Part shown: positions 3,370-37,661 of the stretch, piece by piece
Numbering within the stretch: the first letter of the stretch is position 1
Layout: every line of letters starts with the position of its first letter
NCBI GenBank assembly: GCA_946411935.1
Contig: CAMKFS010000003.1
Location: forward strand, 1-39,108
DNA: 39,108 nucleotides
Source: an uncultured Candidatus Saccharibacteria bacterium
GTDB lineage: Bacteria > Patescibacteriota > Saccharimonadia > Saccharimonadales > Saccharimonadaceae
Direction: 5' to 3'
Translations under genes and position numbers: made by a program
The notes under the pieces: generated by a model
What the model saw: the letters and a program-made list of their open reading frames with translations, nothing else
What the model was told of the DNA's origin: nothing
Databases searched by the model: none

Positions 3370-4371
3370 ATGGCAATTGAGAGAGTTATCGACACGAGCC
3401 TACATGAAGATGACGGCGAAGAAAATATCGTCGAATTTAGCTTGCGTCCGACCAGCTTCGAAGAATACATCGGTCAGGATCGCTTAAAAACTAATCTCAA
3501 ACTCGCGATTGAAGCCGCAAAGAAACGCGGCGACGTACTAGATCATATATTATTATATGGTCCTCCAGGACTTGGCAAGACAACAATGGCCGGAGTGATT
3601 GCGCGCGAGATGAATGCAAACTTTCGCGCCACCTCCGCCCCGTCAATTGAAAAGGCCGGCGACTTAGCAAGTATCCTAACTAGTTTGTCGGATGGAGATA
3701 TCTTGTTTATTGATGAAATCCATCGCTTGAGACGCGCGGTCGAGGAAATCCTATATTCCGCTATGGAAGATTACAAACTCGACATCGTAATCGGAAAAGG
3801 TACCACAGCGCACAGCGTGAAACTAGATTTGCCACGCTTCACATTAATTGGCGCTACAACACAGGCTGGTAACCTTGCTGGTCCATTACGTGATCGTTTT
3901 GGGCATAATTTCCGTCTTGAATATTACGCAGATAAAGATATTCAGAAGATTATTGAGCGTTCCGCAAAACTGCTCGACACAAAGATTGAGCCAGAAGCAG
4001 CTTCGCTACTTGCAAAGCGATCACGTCTAACACCACGCATCGCCAACCGCCTGTTGAAGCGTGTTCGCGATTATGCCGACGTTAATGGCGACGGCATCAT
4101 AGATATGCCAGCAACTAATGGCGCGCTCGAATTGCTCGAAATTGACGAGCTTGGCCTAGATCCAGCCGATCGAAATATGCTAAATCTTATGATCGACAAG
4201 TACGGGAATCGGCCTGTCGGCCTAAATACAATCGCCGCTTTAACCGGCGACGAGGCTTCTACGATTGAGGATTATTTTGAGCCATATCTTATTCAGATTG
4301 GCATGATTCAGCGCACACCAAAAGGCCGCATTATTACAGAAAATGCAAAGAAGCATCTCGGAAGAGCTTAA
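3370..4371 (+). CDS. ruvB: Holliday junction branch migration ATPase RuvB
   Basis: AAA+ motor of RuvAB. Walker A GPPGLGKTT lies at about residues 65-73, Walker B is DILFIDEIHRL, sensor 1 is FTLIGATTQAG, the arginine finger region is PLRDRFG, and a C-terminal winged helix includes RTPKGRIITE. At 333 aa it matches the family. It is transcribed from a leaderless promoter. Its stop overlaps that of the convergent murJ (shared TTAA at 4368-4371). The resolvase ruvC lies about 17 kb away, not in an operon with it. Confidence 0.97.
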   Translation: MAIERVIDTSLHEDDGEENIVEFSLRPTSFEEYIGQDRLKTNLKLAIEAAKKRGDVLDHILLYGPPGLGKTTMAGVIAREMNANFRATSAPSIEKAGDLASILTSLSDGDILFIDEIHRLRRAVEEILYSAMEDYKLDIVIGKGTTAHSVKLDLPRFTLIGATTQAGNLAGPLRDRFGHNFRLEYYADKDIQKIIERSAKLLDTKIEPEAASLLAKRSRLTPRIANRLLKRVRDYADVNGDGIIDMPATNGALELLEIDELGLDPADRNMLNLMIDKYGNRPVGLNTIAALTGDEASTIEDYFEPYLIQIGMIQRTPKGRIITENAKKHLGRA

Positions 4372-6011
4372 TTTTTAGGCTCAGTCGGCTTTGCGTTTTT
4401 GAAGAGAATTTTGACAATACGATTGATGATTGGCTGAACTTCTTTAATCTTAAATAGAACACAAACTACAAGATAGAATGCAAGGCTAACAACCGAAATA
4501 ATGCAGAACTTCGGGAAGGTCGAGAAGAAGGAGTTATCGGTCGCGCGAAGCGGCAATAATTTTGTAAGAATATACGAAACGACTCCGGCAAGCATGGCAG
4601 CAATCGTCATTTTGAATGCAGTCTTCCAAAAAGCGCGGTCGAGGAGATGGCGCTCACGGTTTTGGATAAGCAACAATACACCCACTTCAAATACAGCAGA
4701 AATACTCGTTGCATAAGCGAGGCCTTCTGGACCATAATTCCAAATACTAAATAGGACGGCAAATACTATCTGAACAATGAAAGCGACAATCGAAATAATG
4801 AGCGGAGTTTTCGCGTTTTGACGAGCATAAAAACCGCGCGCAACAATATGATACATTGACTGCGTAATAATCGCGATAATGAATGCGCCGAGAACGCTAG
4901 CAATCTTCGGATCACCACCATTCTTGATAAAGTTCACAACGTAACCGCGCGTGAAGAATGCAATTAGAGCAATCGGCATCGATATTAAAATAATCGTGCT
5001 CAACGCTGAGCGATAAGTCTCACGAAACGCCTCTTTATCCCCGCGTCCCGCCTCTTCTGTTAGCTTCGGGAAGAAAGCAGTCGAAATCGCAACGCCAATT
5101 AAGTTCACTGGCATGGAGTGAAGCGACGAAGCTTGCTGATAAGCACGAATCGATTGTTCACCCATACGAGATGCAAGATTCGTGTTAACGATACTCATGA
5201 CGTAATCAATGCCCTGGTCTGCTGAGCGCGATGGAAGAAGGCGAAGAACCTTACGAAAGCCCTGATTGCGCCAACTGATTTTAAAATTGTAGTCAAAGCC
5301 AAGACCAATAAGACCGATGATACTGACGCCAAGCTGAAGCAACGCGCCAAAAACGACTCCGAGTGCGACGCCCATAATTCCGCCCTCAAATATCTGGATG
5401 CCAAATATATTAATTCCGTTCGTAAACACTAGAATGCCTACGATGATTCCGATATTGTAAAGTGCCGGTGCGAGCGAGTAGAAAATGAAACGCCCAACCG
5501 CCTGCTGCATACTCGATAGTACTGTAGAAATCGAAAACAAGAATGGATTGATTGCAATCACGCGCATCATATTAATCGCCAGAGACATTGCCGATTCGTT
5601 GAGGCCCGGTGCGACAATATAACGAACTAGTGGGTCAGCAAAAATCATGATAAGAATAGAAGCAACGAGACTGATAAAGGCTAGGAAATTAAGCGTACTA
5701 GTGCTAAGCTCCCAGGCAGACTTCTTATTGCCCGCAACAAGACGCTGGTTGAAGACTGGGACGAATGTTACCGCTAGTGCGCCAGATGTAATAATAAAGA
5801 AAAGAAAATCCGGGACAGTGAAGGCTGCTGTATAGGCATCTAGCCCTGCAGGATAGGTATCATAATACATAGTATTAAGCCAGCGATCGCGGAAAATTCC
5901 GAGCAGAGCGGAAATGAGAGTCGAGCTAGCAATCACGATTGCAGCAGTCTTAACAGAAAGACGCTGATTCGCTAGCGAGACAACCGATCTAAAGTGAATT
6001 TTATGCTTCAT
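4368..6011 (-). CDS. murJ: Lipid II flippase MurJ (MviN)
   Basis: MOP-superfamily flippase that moves lipid II across the membrane for peptidoglycan synthesis. At 547 aa it has about 14 hydrophobic segments. The N-terminal pattern (STLISALLGIFRDRWL, FTVPDFLFFIITSGAL, FVPVFNQRL) is the MurJ signature region. A short polar N-terminus and a basic C-terminal tail are visible. TATAAT at 6021-6026 ends 9 nt before the ATG and no Shine-Dalgarno sequence is seen. Together with murC and ftsB it gives the window several wall-synthesis genes. Confidence 0.95.
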   Translation of the reverse strand: MKHKIHFRSVVSLANQRLSVKTAAIVIASSTLISALLGIFRDRWLNTMYYDTYPAGLDAYTAAFTVPDFLFFIITSGALAVTFVPVFNQRLVAGNKKSAWELSTSTLNFLAFISLVASILIMIFADPLVRYIVAPGLNESAMSLAINMMRVIAINPFLFSISTVLSSMQQAVGRFIFYSLAPALYNIGIIVGILVFTNGINIFGIQIFEGGIMGVALGVVFGALLQLGVSIIGLIGLGFDYNFKISWRNQGFRKVLRLLPSRSADQGIDYVMSIVNTNLASRMGEQSIRAYQQASSLHSMPVNLIGVAISTAFFPKLTEEAGRGDKEAFRETYRSALSTIILISMPIALIAFFTRGYVVNFIKNGGDPKIASVLGAFIIAIITQSMYHIVARGFYARQNAKTPLIISIVAFIVQIVFAVLFSIWNYGPEGLAYATSISAVFEVGVLLLIQNRERHLLDRAFWKTAFKMTIAAMLAGVVSYILTKLLPLRATDNSFFSTFPKFCIISVVSLAFYLVVCVLFKIKEVQPIINRIVKILFKNAKPTEPKN

Positions 6012-8837: not shown

Positions 8838-9728
8838 TCACTCTTTCTCTAGCTTGACGATTGCATACAGTTTGCCGTCAGAAAAAACCATGCTCGAATA
8901 TTCAGTCACCCGCCAGCCTTCGCGCTCGTATTTTGCGTGCGGCTGGCCGCTCTTATCGATAGTCGTAATAAACCATGTCGCCAACTCGTCACTCATAGTA
9001 GTCGAAAAATTCATCTCATGATATATTTTACGTCCAGAATAGAATGCCAGCACATCGGCGAGCTCATCTGAATCGCAGACGATGCTAGTATTTTGCTCGT
9101 TATCAAGAACAGCAATTGTCTGGCCCAAATCCTTGCCGGCCGATGGTTTTTGCGCATATAGAGCAATTAGACCACAAACATTAAATACTAACAGTACAAC
9201 AAAAGAAATCCAGGCGAATCTCGGTAGTTTTAATCGATGCCGCAAGATAATTCGCATAATAATAGATAGGACCAAAAATACTTCTAGTGATATAAAAATC
9301 CATGAGTTAATGCTCTGGCCCAGAGCAACGAAAAGTGGCGAACTGGCGGCCAAAAATGAAACTAAAAGCGCGATCTTTAAACCGAAGGTTCTTCGAATAG
9401 TTAGATAGATTAGTAAAACAAGCAACGCACCGCATAAAACAGACAACATGCGCATTGCAAAATCAGTATGCCCAAGAAAATGAGACCATGTTTTTAAGAT
9501 AAGAATATATAGCGGCGATTGCTGTTCGTTCACTGCAACACTTAGAACTTTCGGGAATTCTGTCTGCACAAGATTAGCGCATTTTACCTCGCTCGAGCTA
9601 AGCGAGCGATTAATACTAACTATACAGAAGGCCATAAATAATAAGCCAAACGCCATTGGAGCGATCATCGCAATAATACGCTTGCGACTTCGCATATAGC
9701 GATAAAGACTGTCTAGGTATTTAGCCAT
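8838..9728 (-). CDS. ArnT/PMT-like multi-pass membrane protein, shortened
   Basis: Resembles the GT-C glycosyltransferase superfamily (PMT_2/ArnT-like). QQSPLYILILKTWSHFLG followed by DFAMRMLSVLCGALLVLLIYLTIRRTFG and SPLFVALGQSIN matches the typical second-loop region. About five hydrophobic segments are followed by a soluble C-terminal ~100 residues (SIVCDSDELADVLAFYSGRKIYHE). At 296 aa it is well short of the usual ~500, so full transferase activity is uncertain. It ends in TGA, one of only two TGA stops seen; TAG follows four sense codons later. TATAAT lies 6 nt before the ATG. Confidence 0.6.
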   Translation of the reverse strand: MAKYLDSLYRYMRSRKRIIAMIAPMAFGLLFMAFCIVSINRSLSSSEVKCANLVQTEFPKVLSVAVNEQQSPLYILILKTWSHFLGHTDFAMRMLSVLCGALLVLLIYLTIRRTFGLKIALLVSFLAASSPLFVALGQSINSWIFISLEVFLVLSIIMRIILRHRLKLPRFAWISFVVLLVFNVCGLIALYAQKPSAGKDLGQTIAVLDNEQNTSIVCDSDELADVLAFYSGRKIYHEMNFSTTMSDELATWFITTIDKSGQPHAKYEREGWRVTEYSSMVFSDGKLYAIVKLEKE

Positions 9729-19796: not shown

Positions 19797-21206
19797 TTAA
19801 GCTTTCGGAAATAGTGGCGTTGCCGGCGGAGTTATTTGCTTTGCCCCGAAGATATTTGCAATTTTTGCGGCAGTGTCTGGCAAGAAAATTGCGAGACGAA
19901 GATTTGTATTTACGAGCTCCTGGATAAGTTCCGCTAAGACAGCTTTTGCTTTTTTTGGATCAGTCTTCGCGAGGGCCCACGGCTTTTCTTCATCGATGCG
20001 TTTATTTAGATTCTGAATCTCACTCCAAAGAATATCGAAGGCAAAATTGAATTCATACTTGTCCATGCGAGAGTCGAATTCTGGCGCATCTTTTTGCTCG
20101 GCTTTAATGCCGGCAATCTCATTTTTCTTTGCAAGGGTCGCAAGACGCTGAACAAGATTGCCTAAATCATTAGCGAGCTCATTGTAAGAAGCTTCGTATT
20201 TTTCCCACGTAAAGTCGGCATCCTCAGTCGTCGAAGCATGACGAAGAAAATAATAGCGGAATGGAATTACGCCATGTTTTTCTAGAATTTCATCTGGAGC
20301 AATAACATTGCCGATGGATTTTGACATTTTCTCACCATTCACAGTAATGAAACCATGTGCAAGAAGATTTTTAGGCAATGGCAAATCTAAGCCCATCAGC
20401 ATTGCTGGCCAAATACCAGCATGGAAACGCAAAATATCTTTTCCGACAATCTGCGTGTTAGCTGGCCAAGAATCAGAAATGTCTTTTTCTGGATAACCAA
20501 GAACCGTAATATAGTTTGATAATGCATCAATCCAGACGTACATAACCTGGCTGTCGTCACCGGGAACTTGGACACCCCATTCAACTTGTTCTTTCGGGCG
20601 GGAGATCGAAACATCCGGCATATCCTTCAGTAAATTAAGGAATTCTTTTTTGCGGAAAGCAGGCGTAATTTTCATTTCGTCAGACTCGATTGCTTCACGA
20701 ATGCGATCTTTGAAATCCGCAATGCGAAGATAGTAATTCTCTTCGCTCAATTTAATATATGGCTTTTTATGGTCTGGGCATTCACCATTATTGTCGGCAT
20801 ATTCCTTGTCGGTTACAAAACCTTCACAGCCCTCACAATACCAGCCCTCATATTTATCTTTATAAATATGGTCACTGAGTTTTTCCCAAATCGCTTGGCA
20901 GCGACGTTCGTGATCAGCGTCGGTTGTGCGAACAAAGTCAGTATACTCGACGTCTAATGAATGAATAAAATCTTGAAACTTCTGTGAATTTTGATCGACA
21001 AATTCTTGAATCGGAGTATTTAGCTCGGCAGCTTTTTTGAATATTTTATTGCCATGCTCATCTGTGCCGGCCTGCAAGCGGACTGCCTTGCCCTGAAACA
21101 TCATATAGCGCCGCAACACGTCCGCAAGTAAATAATCCATCGCATGACCGAGGTGCGGATTACCATTGACATACGGGATAGCTGTGGTGATATATGTATT
21201 TTTCAT
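19797..21206 (-). CDS. metG: Methionyl-tRNA synthetase
   Basis: Class I enzyme charging initiator and elongator tRNA-Met. Visible are the HIGH-type motif HLGH (residues 18-21), KMSKS in GEKMSKSIGN, the zinc-knuckle region YCEGCEGFV...GECPDH, and anticodon-binding helices at the C-terminus. At 469 aa it lacks the C-terminal tRNA-binding (Trbp111-like) extension. TATAAT lies 7 nt before the ATG. Its stop abuts the stop of the ltaS-like gene with no gap and no visible terminator. Confidence 0.97.
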   Translation of the reverse strand: MKNTYITTAIPYVNGNPHLGHAMDYLLADVLRRYMMFQGKAVRLQAGTDEHGNKIFKKAAELNTPIQEFVDQNSQKFQDFIHSLDVEYTDFVRTTDADHERRCQAIWEKLSDHIYKDKYEGWYCEGCEGFVTDKEYADNNGECPDHKKPYIKLSEENYYLRIADFKDRIREAIESDEMKITPAFRKKEFLNLLKDMPDVSISRPKEQVEWGVQVPGDDSQVMYVWIDALSNYITVLGYPEKDISDSWPANTQIVGKDILRFHAGIWPAMLMGLDLPLPKNLLAHGFITVNGEKMSKSIGNVIAPDEILEKHGVIPFRYYFLRHASTTEDADFTWEKYEASYNELANDLGNLVQRLATLAKKNEIAGIKAEQKDAPEFDSRMDKYEFNFAFDILWSEIQNLNKRIDEEKPWALAKTDPKKAKAVLAELIQELVNTNLRLAIFLPDTAAKIANIFGAKQITPPATPLFPKA

Positions 21207-25590: not shown

Positions 25591-25612
25591 AAAAATAGTC
25601 CGAATCGGACTC
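25588..25612 (-). terminator. Intrinsic terminator after initiator tRNA
   Basis: AGTCCG / CGGACT hairpin with a run of T on the minus strand, just after the flavoprotein stop on plus. Confidence 0.7.
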
Positions 25613-25622
25613 TCATGAAACT

Positions 25623-25699
25623 TGGTGGCGGGGGTTGGATTTGAACCAACGACCTTCTGGTTATGGGCCAGACGAGCTACCAGGCTGCTCTACCCCGCG
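25623..25699 (-). tRNA. Initiator tRNA-fMet(CAU), unusual form
   Basis: Acceptor CGCGGGG against CCCCGCC leaves a C1 x C72 mismatch, D stem GAGC/GCTC has the initiator A11-U24 pair, the D loop AGCCTGGTA is as in E. coli, the T arm is GTTGG TTCAAAT CCAAC, and A73 plus CCA are encoded. The anticodon loop reads CCCATAA, so position 33 is C rather than U. The anticodon stem is TCTGG/CCAGA, leaving two rather than three G-C pairs next to the loop. Confidence 0.93.
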
Positions 25700-25719
25700 A
25701 TGACTATATAATTATATAT

Positions 25720-26139
25720 CTAACCAAACAAAAAGTCAAGCCACTCGTCGAGATTTGTGCGTTTTTGGTTAAATTTATTATCAATTTCAGAATATTTATT
25801 AACTGCGCTCTCGGAATTTTCCGGAAGAATTACCATAGTTTCGCCTTCGAGCATCATGCCTTGCTTTTCGCGTGCCATAATCTCCTGATACTCCTCGGTA
25901 TTGTAATAATTCTGTTCGAATTTAAGCGTATCAACTTCAAGTTTTAGCTTCTCTGACTGAAGCGTAATTTCCTTCAGCTTCTGCTCGAGTTGCCAGTTGC
26001 GCGTAGTCGCCGTAATGGCATTATAGGTAAAAACGAGACCAAGAATCAGCGCCGCCGCAGCCGAAATATTATGCACGGTCAAATAATCTTTCTTCGTATA
26101 GTAGCGAAGACGACGCAGCTGAGTCTTAATTTTATCCAT
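25720..26139 (-). CDS. FtsB/DivIC-like septum formation initiator
   Basis: 139 aa with a cytoplasmic basic N-terminus (TQLRRLRYYTKKDY). One membrane helix (~28-47, AAAALILGLVFTYNAIT) follows, then a coiled coil (NWQLEQKLKEITLQSEKLKLEVDTLKFEQNYY) and the family-type TEEYQEIMAREKQGMMLEGETMVILPE. That layout and the ARE-x-x-GM-x-x-GE ending match FtsB/DivIC proteins of the divisome. TATAAT lies 6 nt before the ATG. Confidence 0.88.
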   Translation of the reverse strand: MDKIKTQLRRLRYYTKKDYLTVHNISAAAALILGLVFTYNAITATTRNWQLEQKLKEITLQSEKLKLEVDTLKFEQNYYNTEEYQEIMAREKQGMMLEGETMVILPENSESAVNKYSEIDNKFNQKRTNLDEWLDFLFG

Positions 26140-26205: not shown

Positions 26206-26281
26206 GGGGGCATAGCTCAGTGGTTAGAGCAGTCGGCTCATAACCGATTGGTCGCTGGTTCAAACCCAGCTGCCCCCACCA
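26206..26281 (+). tRNA. tRNA with CAU anticodon, probably tRNA-Ile2 (lysidine)
   Basis: Acceptor GGGGGCA/TGCCCCC, D arm GCTC AGTGGTTA GAGC, anticodon loop CTCATAA, T arm GCTGG TTCAAAC CCAGC, A73 and encoded CCA. The D loop, variable region TTGGTC and T arm closely follow E. coli tRNA-Ile2 (k2CAU) rather than elongator tRNA-Met. Assignment to Ile2 is inference; TilS would be needed. Confidence 0.9.
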
Positions 26282-28077: not shown

Positions 28078-28644
28078 ATGAATACAAAAATCGCGTTGTT
28101 AGTCCATGGCTATAATGGCGTTCCGAAGATTTATGAATACTTTCAAAAAGAGCTTAAAAGAAATGGATACAATGTTATAATTCCGGAATTTCCGGTTCGC
28201 GAAGATATCACGATTGGCAGCTATTTTGAAGTTTTTGACAAATATAAAGACCAAATAAATCCGGAAACGATTCTAATTGGCCATTCAATTGGAAATGCCA
28301 TGATTGTAAAGTATCTATCCGCTAATAATCTCTCAGCTAAGGCATACATTGGACTAGCCGGATTCGGAAACCCATTTATCGTTAATGGACGTGATGATCT
28401 AAATAAAGTAGTAGAGCCTCTCGGTTTAACAGACATAGAGACGAATGGTTTTAAGAAACTTGTCGAAAAGAGATATGCAATTTATAGCAATAACGACCAT
28501 ATCGTTCCGTTCGGTAACCTACAAGAGTTTCCGAAGATGATAGGTGCGGAAGAATTTTTAGTGCCAGGAATTGGCCATATGGGCAAGAAAAGCGGCCTCG
28601 AAGAATTGCCGATCGTTATCGAGTTGATTATTAATAATTGTTAA
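28078..28644 (+). CDS. RBBP9/YdeN-like alpha/beta serine hydrolase
   Basis: 188 aa. KIALLVHGYNG carries the oxyanion region; LIGHSIGNAMIVKYL is the nucleophile elbow with Ser. YSNNDHIVPF holds the acid Asp and GIGHMGKKSG the catalytic His, giving a complete triad in RBBP9/YdeN (PF06821-like) order. Substrate unknown, probably a small ester or peptide. Leaderless promoter, unlike its orphan neighbours. Confidence 0.88.
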   Translation: MNTKIALLVHGYNGVPKIYEYFQKELKRNGYNVIIPEFPVREDITIGSYFEVFDKYKDQINPETILIGHSIGNAMIVKYLSANNLSAKAYIGLAGFGNPFIVNGRDDLNKVVEPLGLTDIETNGFKKLVEKRYAIYSNNDHIVPFGNLQEFPKMIGAEEFLVPGIGHMGKKSGLEELPIVIELIINNC

Positions 28645-34521: not shown

Positions 34522-34879
34522 ACTCTTCTTCGTCTAGCGAGATATTTAGCGAATCGTCCGAGAGTGGCTCTGGAGAGAAATCATCAGCCGAATCATCAAT
34601 TCGTTTTATCACCGTGTCAAGTTCATTGAGATATTCGTCGATTACTTCAACATTAATCTCACCTTCATTCGAGAAAGATTCTTTCTGGTCATCCTCCTCA
34701 TTATGTTTCTCATCTTCGAAAATGTAACCAGGACGAGAACGATCAAGATAAATGTCACCGGTCGCACGATAAATCTGGAGGCTTGCAATCGTAGTTATAG
34801 CAGCAATCAAAATCGAGCCTGCGCCAAGAATGATGAGGTTACGGCGACCGCGAATTGGTTTATCTGGATTACTGGCCAT
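34520..34879 (-). CDS. Small single-pass membrane protein, acidic C-terminus
   Basis: 119 aa from ATG 34879 (MASNPDKPIRGRRNL). One membrane helix (LIILGAGSILIAAITTIASLQIY) is followed by a strongly acidic tail (EEDDQKESFSNEGEINVEVIDEYLNELD). Positive-inside residues put the acidic part outside. The start overlaps the end of the preceding gene by 11 nt, so the two are co-translated. Function unknown. Confidence 0.8.
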   Translation of the reverse strand: MASNPDKPIRGRRNLIILGAGSILIAAITTIASLQIYRATGDIYLDRSRPGYIFEDEKHNEEDDQKESFSNEGEINVEVIDEYLNELDTVIKRIDDSADDFSPEPLSDDSLNISLDEEE

Positions 34880-35384
34880 TTGCCAACTCCTCACGTAACT
34901 TGCTAACAGATTCACGATGCTGGCCGATAATCTCGCGTAGACGAGCCATGCTCTCAGAGATTTCATTGCGTTTGCTTCGGACCACTACGAGCTTATCGTA
35001 AAAAGCCTGAGGCTCAGACTTACAATCAAAGTTCTTCAGTGACTCAAGCTCACGAGAATAATCAGTAAATTTATTGCGGAAATAGTCGCGTTCAGAAGAC
35101 AGCTTGATTTGCTGCTCGGCAATCTCGCCATTCGCGCGATTATTTTTTACAAGACGAAGATTAAGATTAATGATGAGATTCGTCAAAATCGATTCATACT
35201 GAGCACCAAGATGCTGGCGGCTCTTTGAGCCATATCGCTCAGTGTTCTGTAGCTGGAGTTTAATGCTGGCGCAGTTCGAGGAAATTAAGCCAGCCTGTTC
35301 ATCACTAATAGTTTGAGCGCTCACAGGATTGACCGCCGCAGCAGCCAATACAACAGCCGAAACTATCGCAAATGATTTTCTCAT
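34869..35384 (-). CDS. Secreted helical protein
   Basis: 171 aa. Signal peptide MRKSFAIVSAVVLAAAAVNPVSAQT with an Ala-x-Ala-like cleavage site. The mature part is mostly charged helix (LQLQNTERYGSKSRQHLGAQYESILTNL; ISESMARLREIIGQHRESVSKLREEL) with two Cys (SSNCASI, NFDCKSE). The track starts at 35447; ATG 35384 is preferred because TATAAT lies 6 nt upstream and the signal peptide then begins normally. Forms a pair with the acidic membrane protein. Confidence 0.82.
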   Translation of the reverse strand: MRKSFAIVSAVVLAAAAVNPVSAQTISDEQAGLISSNCASIKLQLQNTERYGSKSRQHLGAQYESILTNLIINLNLRLVKNNRANGEIAEQQIKLSSERDYFRNKFTDYSRELESLKNFDCKSEPQAFYDKLVVVRSKRNEISESMARLREIIGQHRESVSKLREELANGQ

Positions 35385-35390
35385 AGCTTT

Positions 35391-35396
35391 ATTATA
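35391..35396 (-). promoter_or_regulatory. -10 box, leaderless geometry (secreted helical protein)
   Basis: GGTATAAT on minus, 6 nt before ATG 35384, just after the aspS stop. Confidence 0.65.
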
Positions 35397-35410
35397 CCGC
35401 AAAAAGTCTA

Positions 35411-37177
35411 TTACTCTTCGTCTTCTGGGATAAGCTGAAGATGACAATCGGTAATTTGATACTCGTCAACAACGGATGGCGCACCCATCATGAGGTCAGC
35501 ACCAGAACCGTTCTTCGGGAAGGCGACAATATCGCGGATGTTTTCAGTTTCTTCGAGAACCATAAAGATACGATCAATACCATAGGCACAGCCAGCATGT
35601 GGAGGTGCGCCAAACTTGAACGCATTAAGCATACCGCCAAAGCGCGCTTCGACATATTTCTCGTCATAGCCGAGAATGCCAAAGACCTTATACATGATTT
35701 CCGGATTATGGTTGCGGACAGCGCCAGAGCAGATTTCGTAGCCATTCATAACCATGTCATATTGGTCGGCAACGATTGCGAGTTTTTCTTCGTCAGTCTT
35801 TGCGTTCTCGAGCGCTTCGAGGCCTCCTTTTGGCATCGAAAATGGGTTATGACCAAAGTCGAGTTTCTCTGCCCCGTCGTCCCATTCATAGAATGGAAAA
35901 TCTACAATCCAACAAAGAGCAACCTCTTTTGGATTCTTAAGACCAAAATGATCAGCAAAGGAAATGCGAAGTGCGCCAAGAACTTTATTAACTTTTTCGC
36001 GGAGATCTGCGCCGAAGAATACTGCATCGCCAGCTTTGGCGCTAGTTTTCTTCGTGATGGCATCCAGTTCTTCCTCACTTAAGAATTTAGCAATTGGAGA
36101 CTTGATGCCATCTGGCGTATAAGTAAGGTAAGCAAGACCACCCGCACCAAGTTTACGCGCCTGCTCAGTAAAGCCGTCAATCTGCGAGCGACTGAGGTCA
36201 GCGCCATTCTTAACGCAGATAGCTTTAACGCATTCAGCTTTTGCAAAAACAGCAAACTGTGTATTCTTCAAATCTTCCGTAAGGTCGATAAGCTCCATGC
36301 CATAGCGAAGATCTGGCTTGTCGGTACCGTATTTTTCCATTGCTTCCTGATACGGGATGCGCGGAATATCTTCGGTTAGCAACTTTTTGCCGCCAAAATC
36401 TTTTACTAGACCTTTAACGAGTGGCTCCATTTCTTGGCGAACAACTTCGCCGTCATCAACAAAGGACATTTCACAGTCGAGCTGATAAAATTCGCCATAG
36501 AGACGGTCAGCGCGTGGGTCCTCGTCGCGGAAACATGGAGCAATCTGATAGTAGCGAGGAATTCCGCCGACCATAAGAAGCTGCTTGAATTGCTGCGGCG
36601 CCTGCGGTAATGCATAGAATTGACCCGGGCGAAGACGAGACGGAATGATGAAATCACGTGCACCCTCTGGGGATGAATTAGCGAGAATCGGAGTAGTAAC
36701 TTCAATAAATTCATGCTCATTCATATAATCACGCATGTAGCGATAATAATCGGAGCGACGTGCTAGACGATGTTGCATGCTTGGGCGACGCAAATCGAGA
36801 TAGCGATACTTAAGACGTAGCTCTTCGCCAGTCTCAGCGCCTTCGTCATGAGTGGAAACTGGAAGAGCCTCGGAGCGGTTGAGAAGCTCCATGGATTCGA
36901 CAACAACCTCAATGTTGCCGGTTGGAATATTTGGATTCTCTAGCCCCTCGCCGCGCTGACGAACGGTACCTTCGGCGCGAATAACAAATTCATCGCGGAG
37001 ATGCTCGGCAAGCTCGAAAGCTTCCTTGGTCTGCGGATCGATAACGAGCTGAATAACGCCAGTATGATCGCGCAAGTCAATAAAAATGAGGCCACCGTGG
37101 TCGCGACGGGAATTAACCCAGCCGGCCAATTCAACTTTTCCAGATTTGACAGTAAGATCTTTTGCTAGGGACCGCAT
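35411..37177 (-). CDS. aspS: Aspartyl-tRNA synthetase
   Basis: Class II bacterial-type AspRS, 588 aa. N-terminal OB-fold (VELAGWVNSRRDHGGLIFIDLRDHTG), motif 2 (CFRDEDPRADRLYGEFYQLDCEMSF), GAD insertion domain in the middle, and motif 3 (APPHAGCAYGIDRIFMVL). In genomes lacking AsnRS or GlnRS such enzymes may be non-discriminating; the window does not decide this. GGAG lies 6 nt before the ATG, downstream of a GGTATAAT box. Confidence 0.97.
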   Translation of the reverse strand: MRSLAKDLTVKSGKVELAGWVNSRRDHGGLIFIDLRDHTGVIQLVIDPQTKEAFELAEHLRDEFVIRAEGTVRQRGEGLENPNIPTGNIEVVVESMELLNRSEALPVSTHDEGAETGEELRLKYRYLDLRRPSMQHRLARRSDYYRYMRDYMNEHEFIEVTTPILANSSPEGARDFIIPSRLRPGQFYALPQAPQQFKQLLMVGGIPRYYQIAPCFRDEDPRADRLYGEFYQLDCEMSFVDDGEVVRQEMEPLVKGLVKDFGGKKLLTEDIPRIPYQEAMEKYGTDKPDLRYGMELIDLTEDLKNTQFAVFAKAECVKAICVKNGADLSRSQIDGFTEQARKLGAGGLAYLTYTPDGIKSPIAKFLSEEELDAITKKTSAKAGDAVFFGADLREKVNKVLGALRISFADHFGLKNPKEVALCWIVDFPFYEWDDGAEKLDFGHNPFSMPKGGLEALENAKTDEEKLAIVADQYDMVMNGYEICSGAVRNHNPEIMYKVFGILGYDEKYVEARFGGMLNAFKFGAPPHAGCAYGIDRIFMVLEETENIRDIVAFPKNGSGADLMMGAPSVVDEYQITDCHLQLIPEDEE

Positions 37178-37235: not shown

Positions 37236-37661
37236 TTAACGGAAACGTTTCGACTCGCGGTCGAGATCGCGTTTTTTAATTGTCTGACGCTTGTCGTATT
37301 TTTTCTTGCCTTCACCGACAGCAATAATGAGTTTGATATGGCGTTTGGTTGGCAATAATTCGACTGGGACAATAGTGTTGCCCTGTTGCTTAGCACGGTC
37401 AAGACCGGCAATCTGTTTTTTGGTCGCGAGCAGTTTGATATCCGTCTCCGTCTCAGTGCCGAGCGTGAGGCCGAGAAGCCAAAGCTCGCCACGACGAAGC
37501 GTAACATAAGTGCCCTTTAGCTGCGCATGGCGATCGCGAATGAGGCGAACCTGCGGGCCCGTCAAAACCATACCGACTTCTAGTTTATCGGAGAGATTAT
37601 AGTCATAATGCGCACGGCGATTGACGACTTTTTGCGCAGTCGGTTTTTTGGTCTTTGCCAT
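37236..37661 (-). CDS. smpB: SsrA-binding protein SmpB
   Basis: tmRNA partner in trans-translation. NRRAHYDYNLSDKLEVGMVLTGPQVRLIRDRHAQLKGTYVTL is the OB-fold; LLPTKRHIKLIIAVGEGKKKYDKRQTIKKRDLDRE is the conserved basic C-terminal tail. At 141 aa, normal length. The usual G-x-E-V-K-S segment reads GPQVRLI. TGGTATAAT lies 6 nt before the ATG. No tmRNA was recognised in this window. Confidence 0.95.
   Translation of the reverse strand: MAKTKKPTAQKVVNRRAHYDYNLSDKLEVGMVLTGPQVRLIRDRHAQLKGTYVTLRRGELWLLGLTLGTETETDIKLLATKKQIAGLDRAKQQGNTIVPVELLPTKRHIKLIIAVGEGKKKYDKRQTIKKRDLDRESKRFR

Follow-up and report, generated by a model that had tools for sequence, protein, structure and literature searches.

A tRNA gene in the 39,108-nucleotide stretch of Saccharibacteria DNA analysed here (the window) reads as an initiator, carries C at position 33 and has a U-A pair at 29-41. 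This raises the question of whether an initiator that departs in two places from the textbook rule of three G-C pairs plus U33 is genuine and in use, and how the ribosome would accommodate it. We conclude that the tRNA is genuine and functional, a known molecule in a form specific to its lineage, and that its tolerance by the initiation machinery can be proposed from published structures. The reading that we consider probable is that it is the single functional fMet initiator of a Saccharibacteria genus, with the identities of pair 29-41 and residue 33 only weakly constrained in the P site.

Sequence and predicted fold of the initiator tRNA

ARAGORN identified a tRNA-Met(CAT) on the minus strand, running from 25699 to 25623, and Rfam also calls a tRNA there. 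Read directly and divided into its arms, the gene is CGCGGGG TA GAGC AGCCTGGTA GCTC G TCTGG CCCATAA CCAGA AGGTC GTTGG TTCAAAT CCAAC CCCCGCC A CCA; the full sequence is CGCGGGGTAGAGCAGCCTGGTAGCTCGTCTGGCCCATAACCAGAAGGTCGTTGGTTCAAATCCAACCCCCGCCACCA. The features of the locus, including a neighbouring tRNA that shares the CAT anticodon, are:

25623..25699, minus strand: initiator tRNA-fMet(CAU) gene with encoded CCA (ARAGORN; Rfam RF00005, 59.3 bits; fold; sequence)
25666, minus strand: C33, in the loop C32 C33 C34 A35 U36 A37 A38 (direct reading)
25670, minus strand: U29, which pairs with A41; the first pair of the three-G-C set is lost (direct reading)
25658, minus strand: A41, the partner of U29 (direct reading)
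25627, minus strand: C72, facing C1 (25699), with 1x72 unpaired (direct reading)
25711..25739, minus strand: putative promoter of the tRNA gene, sigma-70-type TTGACT-17-TATAAT (consensus scan, 11/12 matches; consensus only)
25597..25611, minus strand: predicted intrinsic terminator, AGTCCGATTCGGACT then ATTTTTTT (consensus scan; fold -7.6 kcal/mol)
26206..26281, plus strand: Ile2-like CAT tRNA of the lysidine type, with U33, not an initiator (ARAGORN; elongator D arm; Ile2 by resemblance)

The predicted fold is a cloverleaf of -27 kcal/mol with positions 1 and 72 unpaired. The molecule thus has the hallmarks of a bacterial tRNAfMet: its cloverleaf is intact and bears a CAU anticodon, residues 1 and 72 form no Watson-Crick pair, and G2-C71, C3-G70 and A11-U24, all three of which are important for formylation (PMC7949028), are present. 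The combination of C33, U29-A41, C1xC72 and A11-U24 given in the preliminary description was borne out by direct reading. The three G-C pairs of the anticodon stem have been described as highly conserved in initiators of all domains (PMC7949028); here 30-40 and 31-39 are both G-C and 29-41 is U-A, so the stem is not a canonical three-G-C stem.

Compared with E. coli tRNAfMet, the tRNA is alike in its CAU anticodon, unpaired 1x72, G2-C71, C3-G70, A11-U24, G30-C40, G31-C39, encoded CCA and length of 77 nucleotides, and unlike it in having C33, U29-A41 and C1xC72 where E. coli has U33, G29-C41 and C1xA72. The animal cytosolic initiator also has C33 in place of U33, but it is an unrelated eukaryotic molecule with A1-U72 and A54 (PMC9023262), and the likeness at position 33 is convergent.

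A single initiator gene was found

In the genome to which the window belongs (764 kb in 50 contigs, 81% complete), 41 tRNAs were identified, three of them with a CAT anticodon: the initiator, the Ile2-like tRNA and an elongator tRNA-Met on contig C37. No second initiator was found among the 41 tRNAs of this 81%-complete genome, and a DNA search gave no other copy, which answers the call of the preliminary description for a check on a second fMet gene. Congeners at 97-100% completeness (G003, G005, G009 and others) likewise yielded a single initiator match. Two congeners, G011 (97% complete) and G181 (90% complete), had no initiator matching the search pattern, and G011 also had no DNA match; the gene may fall in a gap of these assemblies, or the initiator may have diverged further. 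As it is the only initiator found, we infer that the cell uses this tRNA to start translation in the P site.

The elongator tRNA-Met (contig C37:3-79) has an A31xG39 opposition and hence a four-base-pair anticodon stem, a form that is frequent in bacterial elongator tRNA-Met (27.3%; PMC13092985).

A draft assembly in 50 contigs invites the suspicion that the gene is an error of sequencing or assembly, or that it is in decay. The identical 77-mer was recovered independently from many genomes of the genus, named Saccharibacteria contigs contain it too, and promoter and terminator are intact, all of which makes that explanation vanishingly improbable. Moreover, the same bases are present in 38 of 40 initiators from 45 congeneric genomes, which excludes a read error. 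Phage collections were also considered as a source; they hold ordinary initiators, with up to about 91% identity, and there is no reason to think that the gene is phage-derived.

U29-A41 is normal for the order and C33 arose within the genus

We searched the genus, order and phylum with a pattern in which positions 26-33 and 39-44 were free, so that there was no selection on residues 29, 33 or 41. The pattern matched 40 of the 45 genomes of the genus; 38 share an identical C33 arm, including U29-A41, and two (G002 and G176) have U33, with the stem UUUGG and A72. Among the 137 initiators read in the order, 29-41 is U-A in 135, the other two having G-C, 30-40 is G-C in all 137, and 31-39 is G-C in 135, with A-U in the remaining two; C33 is confined to the five that come from the window's genus. 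The comparison across Saccharibacteria called for by the preliminary description therefore divides its two anomalies: C33 is particular to the genus, and U29-A41, the normal state of the whole order, is not special to this tRNA. The two order members with A31-U39 are G031 (contig C3, 11141-11171) and G058 (contig C32, 17561-17591), in which G30-C40 is the only G-C pair of the three that is kept.

Two congeners keep U33, and C33 arose inside the window's genus. Residue 72 also varies, with C72 in the C33 members of the genus, A72 in the two U33 congeners and mostly U72 elsewhere in the order. In the named contig of Saccharibacteria RGIG5735, C33 stands together with A72 and the older UUUGG stem; the change from U33 to C33 therefore probably came first, followed by the change of the 28-42 pair and A72C.

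The phylum search, in which 102 of 287 genomes had no pattern match, extended this picture. Among the matches listed, the 101 initiators from outside the order have A-U at 29-41 in 68, U-A in eight and G-C in 25; 30-40 is G-C in all 101 and 31-39 in 100, and five have C33. Taken over the 238 Patescibacteria initiators read among the matches listed, G30-C40 is present in 238, G31-C39 in 235, G29-C41 is missing from 211, and position 33 is never a purine. With 30-40 invariant, 31-39 nearly so and 29-41 mostly not G-C, the three-G-C rule is a two-G-C rule in Patescibacteria. Loss of one of the three pairs, as noted earlier, is thus upheld, and absence of G29-C41 is the majority state in this phylum. 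Patescibacteria thereby offer a natural experiment in which what each of the three pairs contributes can be told apart, G29-C41 having been lost in most initiators and G30-C40 in none, and no change being visible in the uS9 tail or the rRNA bases that hold the stem.

C33 recurs in bacterial initiators

A single scan of 84,980 species genomes for initiators with C33 returned at least 117 contigs, of which 80 were listed; U33 initiators were not counted, so the scan gives no frequency of C33. Of 82 C33 matches read among those listed, ARAGORN recognized 76 as tRNAs; the remainder are mostly truncated at contig ends. They come from at least seven phyla, some entries being single metagenome contigs, and among the matches listed include Planctomycetota, Elusimicrobiota, Omnitrophota, Bacillota, Chloroflexota, Victivallales and several Patescibacteria; the Bacillota among them are Weissella, Leuconostoc, Convivina, Fructilactobacillus and Erysipelotrichaceae. 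This spread suggests several independent origins of C33, and the earlier statement that C33 is unusual in bacteria needs revising. Our literature searches found no paper reporting C33 in bacterial initiators, nor any treating Saccharibacteria and initiator tRNA together.

In the 79 C33 initiators that could be parsed among the matches listed, 30-40 is G-C in 79 and 31-39 in 77, and 29-41 is A-U in 41, G-C in 29 and U-A in nine. The C33 initiators of Weissella, Leuconostoc, Phycisphaerae, Elusimicrobia, Falkowbacteria and others thus resemble the window's tRNA in joining C33 to G30-C40, and differ from one another at 29-41, which is G-C in Lactobacillales and most Phycisphaerales and A-U in Parcubacteria-type genomes and Elusimicrobia. 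The broadest lesson is accordingly twofold, a two-G-C stem rule in Patescibacteria and a C33 that recurs in bacterial initiators, and the textbook rule of three G-C pairs plus U33 holds less strictly than is generally claimed. The repeated occurrence of C33, culturable Weissella and Leuconostoc included, opens a direct route to the role of U33 in initiation as opposed to elongation.

A more sweeping generalization would hold that the universal rule is two G-C pairs plus a pyrimidine at 33, with 29-41 drifting phylum-wide and C33 convergent in many phyla and in animals through a shared benefit such as P-site loop geometry or nuclease resistance; we regard this as a tentative proposal with a modest chance of being right. 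A narrower idea is that C33 and the altered stem represent escape from ribonucleases that attack the anticodon loop, such as VapC-type toxins cleaving initiator tRNA. Repeated change at one loop base of one tRNA would fit such an arms race, and it has been proposed that phage tRNAs alter their anticodon loops to evade tRNA-cutting defences (PMC10264068). However, C33 is stable through the genus, without flicker between close relatives, and no nuclease was tied to its distribution; we consider nuclease escape quite unlikely.

Recognition partners and a proposed basis for tolerance

In published structures, A1339 of 16S rRNA contacts pair 30-40, and G1338 reaches pair 29-41 via the 2'-OH of C41 (PMC11497404). 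The terminal arginine of uS9 contacts the phosphates of residues 32, 33 and 35, and in E. coli G30 is the base that matters most (PMC7005279). A review (PMC11231383, citing Mandal 1996) reports that both G29-C41 and G30-C40 are needed for efficient synthesis in E. coli, which counts against taking a tolerance of U29-A41 for granted.

We examined these partners in the window's genome and its family. No 16S sequence was recovered from the window's genus, so statements on rRNA rest on the family, in which the G1338/A1339 context GTCGGAATCGC is present in all members readable there and the 790 region and the anti-Shine-Dalgarno CCTCC are intact. The C-terminus of uS9 is SKR in 30 of 30 sequences, the window's own genome included. 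That genome also encodes the formyltransferase Fmt (contig C19), which matches PF02911 and scores 194.3 bits against TIGR00460 (E 2.6e-57), slightly below the cut-off of 201.5.

On the reading that we favour, the tRNA keeps the determinants that count: the 1x72 mismatch, G2-C71, C3-G70 and A11-U24 for formylation, and G30-C40 and G31-C39 for selection in the P site. By analogy with the E. coli structures, A1339 would read G30-C40 through type I contacts, and G1338 would grip 29-41 by a type II A-minor interaction with residue 41; because that contact is made via the 2'-OH of the residue, U-A or A-U may replace G-C at this pair. The change from U33 to C would be a lineage-specific pyrimidine substitution tolerated in the P site, where residues 32-35 would be held by their phosphates through the C-terminal arginine of uS9 and where an initiator would act without A-site decoding. 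Both efficient function of the variant and its mechanistic tolerance would follow from this scheme.

A mycoplasma-like route, in which start-site selection is looser and the ribosome or initiation factors carry compensating changes, would also account for an altered stem. The unconventional mycoplasma initiators (PMC10568206, citing Ayyub 2018) resemble the present case in a 29-41 pair that is not G-C in a reduced-genome bacterium, and in Mycoplasma pneumoniae the stem is AU/GC/GU, with 31-39 also changed, accompanied by changes in IF3, uS9, uS13 and rRNA. The window's initiator, unlike that of M. pneumoniae, retains G-C at 31-39, and the uS9 SKR tail and the family's G1338/A1339 are unchanged; no compensating change was seen at these two sites.

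IF3 was found in one congener and ten other family members, and was not found in the window's own, incomplete assembly. In all 11 Saccharibacteria sequences, family members alone being compared, E. coli R99-P100 aligns to G-L or G-M, which might favour the mycoplasma-like route, but the position of R131 is R or K. Residue 99 of IF3 varies in bacteria and also differs in B. subtilis, whose initiator is canonical, so a glycine there is hard to interpret and is not diagnostic. Overall, we judge looser selection with compensating changes to be unlikely. The family IF3 sequences (L329-L339) read KQMRFGLKIG or similar where E. coli has KEIKFRPGTD.

Leaderless-type promoters do not track the tRNA changes

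The preliminary description had suggested that the unusual initiator could be linked to heavy use of leaderless initiation, and recruitment of leaderless mRNAs does rely on initiator tRNA (PMC7531240). As a measure we used a TATAAT-like element just 5' of the start; starts were picked mechanically, so percentages are approximate. In the window, such an element lies directly before the ATG in 16 of 38 open reading frames (ORFs), compared with 2.5% at internal ATGs. This makes leaderless mRNAs plausible and supports the presence of frequent leaderless-type promoters.

The supposed tie to the tRNA did not survive comparison. By the same measure, the signal was found in 24/65 ORFs of U33 congeners, 15/35 of a U33 sister genus and 14/60 of a family member with all three G-C pairs; a U33 member with two G-C pairs gave 5/48, another C33 member 7/41, and a distant C33 genome 4/43, without a clear signal. 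Thus, the signal tracks neither C33 nor 29-41. In addition, 30-40% of family ORFs have a Shine-Dalgarno-like motif, and the anti-Shine-Dalgarno sequence is intact. That the tRNA changes adapt initiation to leaderless mRNAs is therefore very unlikely.

A TATAAT or close match a few bases before the ATG is found in about 40% of window ORFs and also family-wide. Examples of this geometry in the window are 4368-6011, 8838-9728, 19797-21206, 25720-26139, 28078-28644, 34869-35447 and 37236-37661.

An elongator tRNA-Arg(UCU) also carries C33

The window's genome contains a second tRNA with C33, an elongator tRNA-Arg(UCU) on the plus strand of contig C5 (2418-2489; L036) with the loop CCTCTAA; the other 38 elongators all have U33. 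C33 is present in the tRNA-Arg(UCU) of every congener in which this form was found (38 of 45 genomes matched the search), and acceptor stems vary and re-pair among these congeners. In the sister genus g11 tRNA-Arg(UCU) has C33, yet the initiator has U33, and in the two congeners with a U33 initiator tRNA-Arg(UCU) is ordinary, with U33.

C33 is therefore not a pure initiator signature, and the argument that it is allowed because an initiator avoids the A site cannot explain everything; the tRNA-Arg(UCU) of this clade poses the U33 question for the A site. Either a clade-level tolerance of C33 or editing is worth testing. C-to-U editing of tRNA occurs in other organisms, and two tRNAs with C32-C33 in one genus, the initiator and tRNA-Arg(UCU), would suit an enzyme that edits C33 to U after transcription and leaves the mature tRNA canonical at 33. 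Against this, each unrelated bacterium with C33 would need an enzyme of its own, and vertebrate initiators work with C33 (PMC9023262); editing is, in our estimate, distinctly unlikely.

Contigs C7, C12, C27, C36 and C37 of the window's genome, and contig ends in G154, G161, G177 and G180, start or stop in or beside tRNA genes, as might be expected if repeats, or sites where elements attach, lie at tRNAs. The tRNA-Arg(UCU) gene is among these contig-end tRNAs, and G154 has two copies near contig ends.
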